Of a stretch of DNA of 64,000 nucleotides, positions 14,842 through 20,046 are shown one piece after another (within the stretch, counting starts at the first letter, position 1; each line of letters starts with the position of its first letter). A model generated the notes under the pieces. It was not told the origin of the DNA, did not search any database, and worked only from the letters and a program-made list of their open reading frames with translations. The stretch is from Anaerolineae bacterium (GTDB taxonomy: Bacteria; Chloroflexota; Anaerolineae; Aggregatilineales; Phototrophicaceae), in NCBI GenBank assembly GCA_022841825.1, contig JALHQT010000003.1, positions 186,001 through 250,000 of the forward strand. Reading direction: 5' to 3'. A program made the translations under genes and the position numbers.

Positions 14842-16860
14842 ATGTGTGGCATTGTGGGCATGGTCGATATGCGCGGGCATGGGCGGGCGGATGAGGCGCG
14901 CGTCCGGCAGATGGCGGCGGCGATCCGCCATCGCGGACCCGACGGCGATGGCTTCTTCTCCACGCCCGATGTCGCGCTGGGGATGCGCCGCCTGAGCATC
15001 ATCGACGTGATGGGCAGCGACCAGCCGCTCTACAACGAAGACCGAACGCTGGCGCTCGTCTTCAACGGCGAAATCTACAACTACCGCGAACTGCGCGAGG
15101 GATTGGCGGCGCGCGGGCACCGCTTTCACACGGCGGGCGATGGCGAGACGATCCTGCATCTGTACGAGGAATGCGGCTTGGATCTGTTCGCGCAGCTTCG
15201 CGGCATGTATGCCATTGCGCTGTGGGACAGCACCCGCGCCCGGCTGGTCGTCGCCGTCGATCACATCGGCATGAAACCACTCTATCTGCACGAACGCGAT
15301 GGCATGACGTACTTCGCCAGCGAGGTCAAGGCGCTGGCAGCGGTGGGTGCGCCGGAGCGCGCCCTCAACCTGGAGACGCTCGATACCTACCTTTCGTTCG
15401 GTTATATGATCGGCGAGGAGACGCTCTTCGCGGGGGTGCGACGGCTCATGCCGGGGCACGCCTTGGTCATCGAAGGCGGCGCGGCGAAGACGGTGAAATA
15501 CGGCAATCCGGGCACCCCTACGGGCGATCCTGTAGGGACAGGGCATGCCCTGTCCGCAATGTCTGCGAATGGAGTGGACGCGGTAGGGCGGACGAGGCGC
15601 GCCTCGTCCCTACAGGAATCCTCTTCGCACCCCGCACCACGCACCCCGCACTCGCCAGAAGCAATCATCGCCGATGCTCGATCCCTCCTCCAGGCGTCCG
15701 TCCGCCTTCACCTGCGCAGCGATGTGCCGCTCGGCTTGTTCCTCAGCGGCGGCGTCGATTCGGCGGCGATGCTGGCGCTGATGACGCGCGAGGTGGGCGG
15801 GCGTGTGCTGACGTACACCGTCGGTTATGTGGGGGAGACGCCCGACAACGAACTGGAACAGGCGAAGCGCACGGCGGCGCACTTCGGCTCGCAGCATGTC
15901 GAGCGCATCATCACGCCCGACGACTGGTGGGATGCGCTGCCGCGCTACGTTGACCATCTCGACGAGCCGGTCGCCAATTCGTCGGCGGTCGCCCAAATGC
16001 TGCTGGCGGAGGAGACGGCGAAGCACGTCAAAGTGGTGTTGACTGGGCTGGGCGGCGATGAACTGTTCGGCGGCTATGCCAGTCATCGGATGATTCCCTG
16101 GTTGGTGCGGACGCACGAACGTCTGCGCGCCTTCGAGTGGTTCGCGGCTCCGCTCGGCGCGCTGGAGGCGCTCTACCCCCGCATGAAGAACTATCGTGTG
16201 ATCGGCGCGCTGCCGACGTACCTGCCACGCCTCCGGCAGGTGCTGCTGCCGGTCGCCGACGGCTTGCGACGGATGCTGTCGTATGATGGCATGGTCATGA
16301 GCGACGCGCTGCGGGGCGCATTCTACGGCGCGGATCTGCGGGCGGCGTGGGGGCGGGCGCAGCACAAGGAGCGGACGTTCGCGGGCATCCTGGCGCGGAG
16401 CTGGCACGACGATCCGGCGGATACCGCCCATGCACTGATCCAGAACACCTGGCTGCACGGCAACGCGCTGCTCTATTGCGACAAGGTGACGATGGCGCAT
16501 TCGCTGGAAGCGCGGGTGCCGTTCTTCGATCCGGTCATGCTGCGGTTCGCGGCGGAGACGCCGGTCGATGTGCGAATGCGCGGCAACAAGTACATCCTGC
16601 GCGAGGCGATGCGCCCGTACCTGCCGGATTTCGCGCTTGAACGCCCCAAGCAGCCCTTCAGCACGCCGATCCGCGGCTGGTTCGACACGACGCTGCGCTC
16701 GCGCATCGCCGAGGTGCTGTTGGATGGCGGCGCGCGCGTCCGCGCGTACTTCGACCGCGCTGGCTACGAGCGCCTCGTTCGCGCGCACATGGACGGGCGC
16801 GCCAAACACGAAGAAGTCATCCTCCGTCTGCTGCTGCTGGAGCTGTGGCTCAAACAATAG
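14842..16860 (+). CDS. asnB: asparagine synthase (glutamine-hydrolysing), with an in-frame repeat-derived insertion
   Basis: MCGIVGMVDMRG N-terminal Ntn-type GATase, SDVPLGLFLSGGVDSAAMLALM synthetase signature; extra residues approx. 15505-15657. Confidence 0.95.
   Translation: MCGIVGMVDMRGHGRADEARVRQMAAAIRHRGPDGDGFFSTPDVALGMRRLSIIDVMGSDQPLYNEDRTLALVFNGEIYNYRELREGLAARGHRFHTAGDGETILHLYEECGLDLFAQLRGMYAIALWDSTRARLVVAVDHIGMKPLYLHERDGMTYFASEVKALAAVGAPERALNLETLDTYLSFGYMIGEETLFAGVRRLMPGHALVIEGGAAKTVKYGNPGTPTGDPVGTGHALSAMSANGVDAVGRTRRASSLQESSSHPAPRTPHSPEAIIADARSLLQASVRLHLRSDVPLGLFLSGGVDSAAMLALMTREVGGRVLTYTVGYVGETPDNELEQAKRTAAHFGSQHVERIITPDDWWDALPRYVDHLDEPVANSSAVAQMLLAEETAKHVKVVLTGLGGDELFGGYASHRMIPWLVRTHERLRAFEWFAAPLGALEALYPRMKNYRVIGALPTYLPRLRQVLLPVADGLRRMLSYDGMVMSDALRGAFYGADLRAAWGRAQHKERTFAGILARSWHDDPADTAHALIQNTWLHGNALLYCDKVTMAHSLEARVPFFDPVMLRFAAETPVDVRMRGNKYILREAMRPYLPDFALERPKQPFSTPIRGWFDTTLRSRIAEVLLDGGARVRAYFDRAGYERLVRAHMDGRAKHEEVILRLLLLELWLKQ
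15531..15614. repeat. Two REP-like palindromes inside the asnB coding region
   Basis: TGTAGGGACAGGGCATGCCCTGTCC (15531-15555) and GTAGGGCGGACGAGGCGCGCCTCGTCCCTAC (15583-15613). Confidence 0.9.
16797..16850 (+). repeat. Direct repeat, copy 1 (3' end of asnB)
   Basis: GCGCGCCAAACACGAAGAAGTCATCCTCCGTCTGCTGCTGCTGGAGCTGTGGCT. Confidence 0.95.
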
Positions 16861-17082
16861 TCCATTAATTGATCTCAATCCAAGCACAGAGGCGAATCAA
16901 GTATCTGAGTTTCAAATTCTTGCAGAAACCTTAATGATTTCGTCGTGTGAGGCTGTTGCACATGCTATATAAGAGGATATATTTTGGGCAGGTACCTCTG
17001 GCTGATATTACATTTGTACGCTCTTCCATTGAGTTGGGGTAACAAGCTTTGTCAGTGATTGCAGGTTGGGAAGCCAAGTAGC

Positions 17083-18762
17083 ATGAACGAACCTACGCAG
17101 AAGGACGCTCCACAGACTCAGCGCGAAGATCACAGCGCACCGATAGTTGAACCTAGCAGTCCAAGTCCGATACTCGCGCAGCGCACGAATCGCTTCCGCC
17201 TGACACCAGAAATTATCCTTAGCATCATCGGCGTCGTCATTGCCATCATTACGCTATGGGTACAGGCAAATCCACACATCCCAATTACGGCCACCCCCGA
17301 ATCCTTTTCCACTGCCGCGCCTCGTCTCATCGCTACCGCAGAACCCGGCGAAATTCTAATTTTGGTAGAACGTTTCGACGGGACTACTGAAAATGCCGAA
17401 GCTGTGCGCGATTTGGTTTGGTCTGCCATTGACGACGCCGTCATGCGTCTGCACAGTCAGCAGCTTTACGACATCCGTGTAGAATCACTGGGTGATGGCG
17501 TTGCCATTACATCCCGACAAGAGGCAATTAACCTTGGCAGGCGGTACGGGGCATCACTGGTTGTCTTCGGGTCGTTCGATTCGCTAATCGGTCTCAATGT
17601 CAGCTTCGCGGCTGTAAGTCGCTCGCTATCGTCCCATGTCGATGGAAGCATTGACCGCTCAATTTCCATCCCTATGGAAAATCTGGGTGTCCAAATAGTG
17701 GATGTGCGCTCGTTCATCATGACAGCAGCCGCGGTCGTCTATAACCTCAACGACCGTCCTCAGGATGCGCTGCGAGCACTGGGTTTCGCTCACGAAGAAC
17801 GCGATCCGGATTCAACGACTTGGGAAGCATCGGTTGGTTATGCCTACTACCTTGCCTTAGGTTTAGCGCACTACAATGTCGGCGAATTCGCAGAAGCGAT
17901 CCAAGCCTATGACCAAGCACTACAAATAGAACCGCGTAGTGCCGATACACTCAACTCGCGCGCGAGCGCAGAGGTCGGACTAGAGCAGTATGAGAAAGCT
18001 GAGTCAACTTACCTTGAGGTGCTGGAAATCAATCCATCATTCGCTCTTGCGCAATTTGATCTTGGATCTCTTTACAAATACTACCTAATTGATGGTCGTG
18101 ACCCTCAATTGTACTTTGAAAGAGCGATTGAACTCCTGACCACCCAAATAGAGGACGACCCAGAAAATGTCTTCCTTCTGCACTACCGGAGCAAAGCCTA
18201 CACCGAAGTGGGTAATCACGCGAATGCTTTGGTAGATGCCCAGGCAGCGTCAGAATTAATGCCCGACCATTCTGATTTGACGCTTCATCTCGCTCTTGCC
18301 TACTATTATGCGGGAGTTTATGAGGAAGCGCTGACGACATTGAACGCAATCGAAGCAGACTTTGTCGAAAATGCCACATACTATGATTTGCGTGCCAATG
18401 TCCACCTCAGGGATTCGTTGCACGAAGAAGCCCTGCGGGATGCGCAGCGCGCGCTCGAACTTTCGCCAGATAACTCCAACTACATGTTCACACTGGCGAT
18501 CATCCATTATCATCTGCGCCAGTACGAGGATGCGCTCGCACACCTCGAAGCTGCTGCATCGGATCTTGTTAACAACCTGAATTATTTTGATTGGCTTGGC
18601 GCAACCTACTACCAACTATGCCGTGTGGATGATGCACGCACAACCTACGCTACTTATTTCGGACTGGGAGGTGATACGGATGTCTGGTGGATGACCGAAA
18701 TCAACCGGACTCCGGACGCCTGTCCCAACCCGTCACCCGCCCCTAGTGGCGGCGGTCAATAG
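17083..18762 (+). CDS. membrane-anchored TPR-repeat protein
   Basis: One TM (IILSIIGVVIAIITLWV), then multiple TPRs (ALGLAHYNVGEFAEAIQAYDQALQIEPRSADTLNSRA...). Confidence 0.85.
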   Translation: MNEPTQKDAPQTQREDHSAPIVEPSSPSPILAQRTNRFRLTPEIILSIIGVVIAIITLWVQANPHIPITATPESFSTAAPRLIATAEPGEILILVERFDGTTENAEAVRDLVWSAIDDAVMRLHSQQLYDIRVESLGDGVAITSRQEAINLGRRYGASLVVFGSFDSLIGLNVSFAAVSRSLSSHVDGSIDRSISIPMENLGVQIVDVRSFIMTAAAVVYNLNDRPQDALRALGFAHEERDPDSTTWEASVGYAYYLALGLAHYNVGEFAEAIQAYDQALQIEPRSADTLNSRASAEVGLEQYEKAESTYLEVLEINPSFALAQFDLGSLYKYYLIDGRDPQLYFERAIELLTTQIEDDPENVFLLHYRSKAYTEVGNHANALVDAQAASELMPDHSDLTLHLALAYYYAGVYEEALTTLNAIEADFVENATYYDLRANVHLRDSLHEEALRDAQRALELSPDNSNYMFTLAIIHYHLRQYEDALAHLEAAASDLVNNLNYFDWLGATYYQLCRVDDARTTYATYFGLGGDTDVWWMTEINRTPDACPNPSPAPSGGGQ

Positions 18763-18766
18763 GCGC

Positions 18767-18820
18767 GCGCGCCAAACACGAAGAAGTCATCCTGCGTCTG
18801 CTGCTGCTGGAGCTGTGGCT
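18767..18820 (+). repeat. Direct repeat, copy 2 (duplicate of asnB 3' end, then GCGCGGGAAGTGA)
   Basis: GCGCGCCAAACACGAAGAAGTCATCCTGCGTCTGCTGCTGCTGGAGCTGTGGCT, 53/54 identical to 16797-16850. Confidence 0.95.
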
Positions 18821-19011
18821 GCGCGGGAAGTGATGCGCCGCCTGATGCCTTGCATATTTCTGAAAAGCATAAATTTTCCATTGGCTTACGCCTGAGTTGC
18901 TCATTCGTCGCTTACGCTATATAGAGCGAGCAACGTAGCATTTGCTGGAGATGGGGCACTTCATCTTTTATTGCCCCTCGCAAGTATCTGCTTCAATCGG
19001 GAGTACGTCGA

Positions 19012-20046
19012 ATGCATCCACAGCAGCAACATCATCCACATGAAGCGGGGCAAGGAGTGACTGAATATGCGCTCCTGATCTCTTCGATAGCCATCGTCAT
19101 TATTCTGATTCTGAATCTTCTGACCCAGTCCACACGCGGTACGTTTGCCAACCTGATGTGCAACCTCCAGCCAGGCGGCATGTGTCCCTCGCTGGCAGAG
19201 CAGCTTGGGCACGGCGGCAGCGGCGGCGGCAATGGCGTTTCCGACACGAATAACGGTGGCGGCGGCGGTGGTGGCGGTGGTGGATCGGTACCAACGCCGA
19301 CCAACACGCCGAACCCAGCGCACACACCGACCAACACGCCGAACCCGGCGCATACGCCGACCAACACGGCGACGACTGCGCCGACCAGCACCAGCACGCC
19401 AACCGCGACAGCGACAGCGACGGCAACGGCGACGACGACCGCTACGGCTACGACGACTGCTACGCCAACCATTACCGCGACCGCCACGATCGGTCCGACG
19501 GCGACGCCAACGCACACGCTGACGCCGGTGCCGACCAATACGCCCGTGCCGACTTCGACGCCGACGGAGACGCCGACCTCGACGCCGACGGCGACGACCG
19601 CTCCGCCATACATCATCTACGGCGATACAGCACTCAGCAATGGATGGATGAACTGGTCCTGGCAGATGGCAAGCGGTTCACCCAACTTTGCCAACAACAG
19701 TAACAACTATGCGGGTACAACCAACATCCGTGTCCAGTATACACAGGCATGGGCGGCACTTTATCTCCGCTCACCCTCGCAGATCAGCGGCAACTACAAT
19801 ACGCTGACTTTTGCAGCGCGACGCAACAACAACAACAGCCCCTCCACGCTGCGCATCCTGTTCTACAATCAGGCGGAAGTGGTGACGCATGTTCAGACAA
19901 TTACGCTGACGAATAGCTGGCAGGTATTCAACGTCTCGCTGGGGTCCTATGCGTTGAGCAGTCTATATGGGGTTGCATTCCAGCCAGAGACCTTGCCCAA
20001 CAGTCCCATTTTCATGATCGATGAGGTGAGGTTGGTGCGCAACTAA
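19012..20046 (+). CDS. Flp-pilin-like N-terminus, Gly-rich hinge, Thr/Pro-rich stalk and CBM/jelly-roll-like C-terminal domain
   Basis: [25 protein letters not shown] resembles Flp/type IVb pilins; [16 protein letters not shown]... low complexity; C-terminal beta-rich domain ending [11 protein letters not shown]. Confidence 0.75.
19296..19604 (+). repeat. Degenerate tandem repeat encoding the T/P-rich stalk
   Basis: ACGCCGACCAACACGCCGAACCC[A/G]GCGCA 30-bp unit twice, then GCGACNGCNACG trinucleotide-biased tract. Confidence 0.8.

Follow-up and report, generated by a model that had tools for sequence, protein, structure and literature searches.

Accessory genes between duplicated gene tails in an Anaerolineae genome point to repeated uptake by homologous recombination at conserved gene ends

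In our study, we identified in the genome of an Anaerolineae bacterium (GCA_022841825.1) a gene for a TPR protein that lies between two nearly identical copies of the 3' tail of asnB, and we found the same pattern at other genes of this genome. We consider it probable that a fragment made up of another lineage's asnB tail and the TPR gene was integrated by a single crossover, and that integration of this kind has recurred at other genes. The anatomy, in which long direct copies of target sequence enclose foreign cargo, matches insertion with long target duplication; the cases described here differ from that known kind in the type of cargo, the concentration at 3' ends, the recurrence in one genome and the allelic nature of the copies. 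The features of the asnB locus and of the other cases are shown in Table 1, where the window is the whole stretch of 64,000 nucleotides that holds asnB.

Table 1. Features of the asnB locus (window positions) and of the other genes with a partial copy of their own end (contigs C1 to C3).
Feature	Position	Strand	Repeat	DNA between the copies	Remarks
asnB, glutamine-hydrolysing asparagine synthase, host gene	window 14842..16860	+	54 bp (57 bp by blastn)	TPR gene	ORF; PF00733 (2.7e-84), PF13537 (2.5e-41), TIGR01536
Tail copy A, within asnB	window 16797..16850	+	53/54 identity with copy B
CAAACAATAG, current asnB end (KQ*)	window 16851..16860	+			putative insert-borne end
Low-GC spacer, opening part of the insert	window 16861..17082	+			GC about 0.44 over 16850-17149
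Cargo, gene for the 559-aa TPR protein	window 17083..18762	+			Pfam TPR families; GC3 at the 1.1st percentile
Tail copy B, non-coding remnant 3' of the cargo	window 18767..18820	+	matches copy A
GCGCGGGAAGTGA, continuation of copy B (RGK*)	window 18821..18833	+			putative original asnB end
LuxR-type response regulator	C3:166032-166598		about 43-44 bp, 44/44 identical	histidine kinase	repeat begins 6 bp after the kinase stop
ade, adenine deaminase	C1:1235220-1236923		89 bp	554-aa P-loop protein (ATPase)
fhs, formate-tetrahydrofolate ligase	C2:205522-207216		112 bp	SLFN_AlbA_2 protein
sdhB	C2:533667-534425		95 bp	two HicB-like antitoxin genes
Ribonucleotide reductase, called nrdJ	C2:161664-164219		269 bp	DUF3892
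MFS gene	C2:636259-637488		276 bp	7-kb biosynthetic cluster	ordinary GC
TIR/HEAT gene	C2:6723-8942		39 bp	about 160 bp, no cargo	weak case
dnaE-type gene (PHP domain), 5' mirror case	C1:1440841-1444068			DUF5615/DUF433 pair

The two copies of the asnB tail differ at a single base (C16824 in copy A, G18794 in copy B), a synonymous change at the third position of a Leu codon (CTC/CTG). A 27-base core of the repeat has just these two copies in the whole genome (5.9 Mb), and a 26-base core is expected 0 times in shuffles of the window. Through copy A, asnB ends ELWLKQ*; in the same frame, copy B would give ELWLRGK*. The copies are 1916 bp apart and enclose one gene, that of the TPR protein, whose stop codon (18760-18762) lies 4 bp upstream of copy B. 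The GC content of the insert is 0.508, compared with 0.663 for asnB and 0.609 for the window, and the GC3 of the TPR gene is 0.525 against 0.829 for asnB, so that the former ranks in the lowest 1.1% when set against all 1849 genes called across the survey. The sequence-only reading had described repeats identical except for one base, the two alternative protein ends, a TPR gene of lower GC that stops just before copy B, and the lack of an integrase; alignment, translation, coordinates and the comparison of the insert with its flanks bear out these points, and neither the ORF list nor Pfam revealed an integrase or transposase ORF in the insert. The 30 bp to the right of copy A have 30% GC and the 30 bp to the right of copy B have 70%; because the flank of copy A is AT-rich, like the insert, we read the KQ* end as insert-borne. 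The asnB of one relative (G022) ends ELWQREFLRG*, and its resemblance to the LRGK* of the copy B continuation is a weak hint that this continuation may be the original asnB end of the genome.

Two further observations were made at this locus. A palindromic dispersed element (TAGGGACAGGGCATGCCCTGTCC ... GGACGAGGCGCGCCTCGTCCCTACAGG) lies in frame in the glutaminase-synthetase linker of asnB (window 15515-15690); pieces similar to it match many places in the genome, and its core, GGACGAGGCGCGCCTCGTCC, has 8 matches on both strands of 2.45 Mb, that is, about 4 sites, mostly inside called genes. Downstream of copy B, the gene at window 19012-20046 has a Flp-pilin-like N-terminus followed by a long Thr/Pro-rich repeat, and no Pfam match was found for it.

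With one apparent hydrophobic N-terminal membrane helix and TPR repeats assigned to Pfam TPR families, the cargo protein of the asnB locus looks, from its sequence, like a membrane-anchored protein-interaction scaffold; an AlphaFold prediction from the single sequence was of too low confidence to be informative (pLDDT 40). Its N-terminal half appears to be essentially an orphan: no relative of it was found among 60 relatives, its N-terminus has none in genome, viral, plasmid or phage collections, and residues 1-249 gave one weak match (35% over 102 residues) among 300 other genomes of the phylum. A search for a paralogue of the TPR gene beside another duplicated tail gave none: no other gene of the genome matches this N-terminal half.

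Comparison with relatives gave limited resolution at asnB. The best asnB among the genus members compared, which are distant, has 65% protein identity, only groEL and asnB match well when the asnB-groEL stretch is compared with them, and a DNA comparison across these genomes, in which the neighbouring genes are not syntenic, yielded no empty site. Concatenated host tails and downstream genes, compared with the genus members, revealed no conserved neighbourhood; in five other cases, the genes beyond copy B do not adjoin the host genes in 14 genus members, as judged from coordinates only. No donor of cargo plus tail was found, and the asnB query had no match in genome-contig collections. The sequence-only reading had named the same arrangement in relatives as evidence against an insertion, and this was not found; the asnB without the intervening gene that would have confirmed it was not found in relatives either. 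As relatives showed no empty site, we infer the direction of insertion.

Special attention was given to lone copies of gene ends elsewhere in the genome. The survey covered contigs C1 and C2 and C3:166001-250000, together 2.45 Mb or 41% of the 5.9 Mb genome, with genes called by our own codon-pair model; we searched for repeat pairs, then for partial gene copies at most 12 kb from their gene, and then for such copies anywhere in the surveyed DNA, and tandem paralogues and dispersed repeats were left out of the tally. As a result, we identified 8 genes whose 3' tail alone is repeated further downstream in the same orientation, over 39-276 bp, which amounts to about 3 per Mb within these 2.45 Mb of one genome. 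In 7 of the 8, cargo lies between the copies, and most inserts measure only 0.6-2 kb. The names of the host genes other than asnB, and that of the cluster at the MFS gene, are our own interpretation of the sequences and do not come from database matches. Nowhere in the 2.45 Mb was a lone 3'-tail copy found far from its own gene, and internal parts of genes gave no convincing case there. The mirror image at the 5' end was seen once: at C1:1440187-1440899, a 52-bp copy of the start of the dnaE-type gene is followed by the DUF5615/DUF433 pair on the opposite strand, which is toxin-antitoxin-like, and then by the full gene, and the two starts show 3 differences, all of them synonymous. The ratio of 3' to 5' cases, 8:1, departs from evenness (p = 0.02, or 0.035 without the weak TIR/HEAT case). 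Among repeats of other kinds, C2:647798-656664 holds a tandem duplication of a unit of about 4.3 kb (a 1200-aa gene and a small gene on the opposite strand) with 93-97% identity, and C1:1386159-1391486 is a region of short ORFs on alternating strands, interspersed with a complex array of direct repeats (up to 250 bp, 100% identical).

Most of the cargo is low in GC3 for this genome: the percentiles are 1.1 for the TPR gene, 0.9 for the ATPase, 0.05 for SLFN_AlbA_2, 4.1 for DUF3892 and 8 for the HicB genes. Some features of the set count against import, namely the ordinary GC of the MFS cargo, the only mildly low GC3 of the histidine kinase (20th percentile) and the TIR/HEAT case, which has no cargo. 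The ATPase resembles ORC-CDC6 proteins below the cut-off, and PADLOC returned no match for the two larger cargo proteins.

The recurrence of the pattern bears on two rival explanations. Copy B could be what is left of a second asnB, tandem or xenologous, that stood 3' of the TPR gene and was deleted except for its tail; allelic differences between the copies would be expected here too, and synteny with relatives is too poor to count against such a history. It would nevertheless need 8 independent deletions, each sparing the cargo and only 39-276 bp of 3' tail, and at asnB the deletion would have to stop 4 bp after the TPR stop codon; comparable local remnants of 5' or internal parts were not seen, save for the one 5' case. 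We regard this history as quite unlikely. A mixture of strains in the assembly could likewise join one strain's tail and cargo to the other strain's tail, and a genome in 21 contigs with 2.36% contamination might supply allelic copies in this way. The cargo-tail junctions, on the other hand, show no overlap able to cause a false join and are free of N gaps (a single run of N occurs in the contigs surveyed, at C2:333266), and eight errors alike, all of them at 3' tails, would be required, so that we find an artefact very improbable.

The sequence-only reading had proposed an insertion at the 3' end of asnB that regenerated the gene end, and the same pattern at other genes supports this. Of the two versions that it offered, the one modelled on integrative elements at tRNA genes is not supported by our results. 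Integrative elements at gene 3' ends, such as e14 in icd, supply a new gene end and leave the old tail at the far side, and they carry an integrase, or once did, and use one site. An element of this type (with an att duplication of the tRNA/icd type) that targeted the asnB 3' end and later lost its integrase would account for the imported tail that completes the gene and for the direct repeats at both edges. No recombinase was found in any insert examined, at asnB or in the other cases; a different gene is used in each case, the inserts share no common core, and no 8-base word is common to the inner junctions (right of copy A, left of copy B) of different cases. The small size of most inserts also speaks against this explanation, to which we give hardly any credence. 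The other version, single-crossover integration of a circle that carries an asnB tail, fits best: the paired copies differ mainly at synonymous sites, which incoming DNA with its own allele of the tail would bring about, and the repeats end at the stop codon.

These two signatures deserve closer description. In 8 of 8 cases, the right boundary of the repeat falls at the end of the stop codon or 0-34 nt before it, and the left boundaries vary; a stop at this place would follow if the homology between a donor with the cargo and a recipient without it ended there. Duplication that preserved the gene could equally have extended into intergenic DNA, and none of the 8 repeats did so. Of the 45 differences between copies A and B, 31 affect third codon positions, or 34 of 48 with the dnaE-type case included, a share well above one third (p = 1e-7) and above the 0.44 expected for a freely drifting copy B (p = 1.6e-4), the latter expectation being our own rough estimate, made without simulation. 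The ade copies have 10 differences in 30 codons, 8 of them synonymous, and the fhs copies each complete the protein in a different manner (DEQGQVVGLF* and DSEGRIVGLF*). This concentration at third positions suggests that the paired copies most likely diverged as working gene ends in separate lineages, that is, as functional alleles. It is important to note that the argument rests on the other loci, since the asnB pair, with its one synonymous difference, has no power here. Copy B of nrdJ has an 11-bp deletion and is decaying, so that copy A is taken as the functional end. The arrangement found is a complete (hybrid) gene, then the cargo, then a truncated copy of the tail.

That the copies look like diverged alleles speaks against a model in which the recipient simply duplicated its own target, where insertion would have created the long repeats and copy B would since have been drifting. 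The single difference at asnB and the full identity of the response-regulator copies agree with such a duplication, and restriction-modification genes of H. pylori are known to show the pattern (PMC1643837, PMC4978471). The third-position excess, the synonymous changes of ade and the two complete ends of fhs are at odds with it, and it leaves the end of the repeats at the stop codon unexplained; we consider it unlikely. Insertion with long target duplication at H. pylori restriction-modification genes (Nobusato et al. 2000, as described in PMC1643837, PMC4978471 and PMC3031569) shares with our cases a cargo that lacks a recombinase and long target-derived direct repeats of variable length. Our cases differ in that nearly all targets are gene 3' tails, the cargo is not a restriction-modification system, the copies look like diverged alleles and the event recurs within one genome.

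Under the single-crossover reading, a donor fragment with the last 55-60 bp or so of another lineage's asnB and the TPR gene downstream of it would enter the cell and have its ends joined to form a circle, or behave as one. One RecA-type crossover inside the asnB tail would then integrate the circle. This would leave asnB closed by an imported end (KQ*) and followed by the TPR gene, then by the original tail, now displaced (copy B, RGK*), and by the native DNA beyond it. Events of this type would have been repeated in this genome, each at another conserved gene that served as the anchor and with other accessory genes as the cargo. The circular intermediate, the dependence on RecA, the direction of transfer and the route of entry are all parts that we infer; natural transformation is a possible route, and a ComEC homologue is present in the genome, although its match is no proof of competence because the same search also matches genomes such as that of E. 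coli. The bias towards 3' ends can be explained, as the host gene stays whole there and an insertion at the 5' end would separate the gene from its promoter. The length of the anchors, 43-57 bp in some cases, is short for RecA-type recombination and also weighs against import.

An experimental parallel with the same outcome comes from E. coli: among 60 recombinants, 56 had part of the homologous gene end duplicated (over 109-950 bp in the 14 that were sequenced), which was ascribed to a single crossover of a trimmed, recircularised molecule (Amarir-Bouhram et al. 2011, PMC3240628). This parallel shares the partial duplication of a gene end around foreign DNA; it concerns laboratory conjugation with about 1 kb of homology, whereas our cases are a genome record with repeats of 39-276 bp. 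Homology-facilitated illegitimate recombination (HFIR), outnumbered 56 to 4 by recircularised single-crossover products in those experiments, also brings in foreign DNA by homology at one end only, but it typically combines insertion with loss of DNA and leaves no flanking duplication (PMC3240628). The minimal mobile element (Saunders and Snyder 2002, as described in PMC8627216) similarly places accessory genes beside conserved genes by homologous recombination only; it differs in that its content varies between two conserved genes across strains and its definition includes no duplicated tail. None of the relatives compared here has the same flanks as the asnB insert. A limited literature search found no description of the present combination of features.

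Taken as a whole, the pattern suggests that this genome has repeatedly taken up accessory genes through ordinary homologous recombination at the ends of conserved genes. For single accessory genes that bacteria acquire with no mobile element involved, an explanation of the route is often missing. If our reading is true, lone duplicated gene tails would be a readable scar of such gains, the codon position of the differences would show whether an allele was imported or a sequence simply duplicated, both features could be scanned for in any genome, and small accessory islands that lack an integrase and lie directly 3' of housekeeping genes would be explained. More speculatively, and with little confidence on our part, gene-tail cassettes may be a standing route of acquisition in this lineage, a mobile unit free of integrase that moves through homologous recombination alone: the repeat-flanked cargo would be released as a circle and could recombine back into that conserved gene end in any related cell, and single toxin-antitoxin, defence-like and other accessory genes could spread in this manner.
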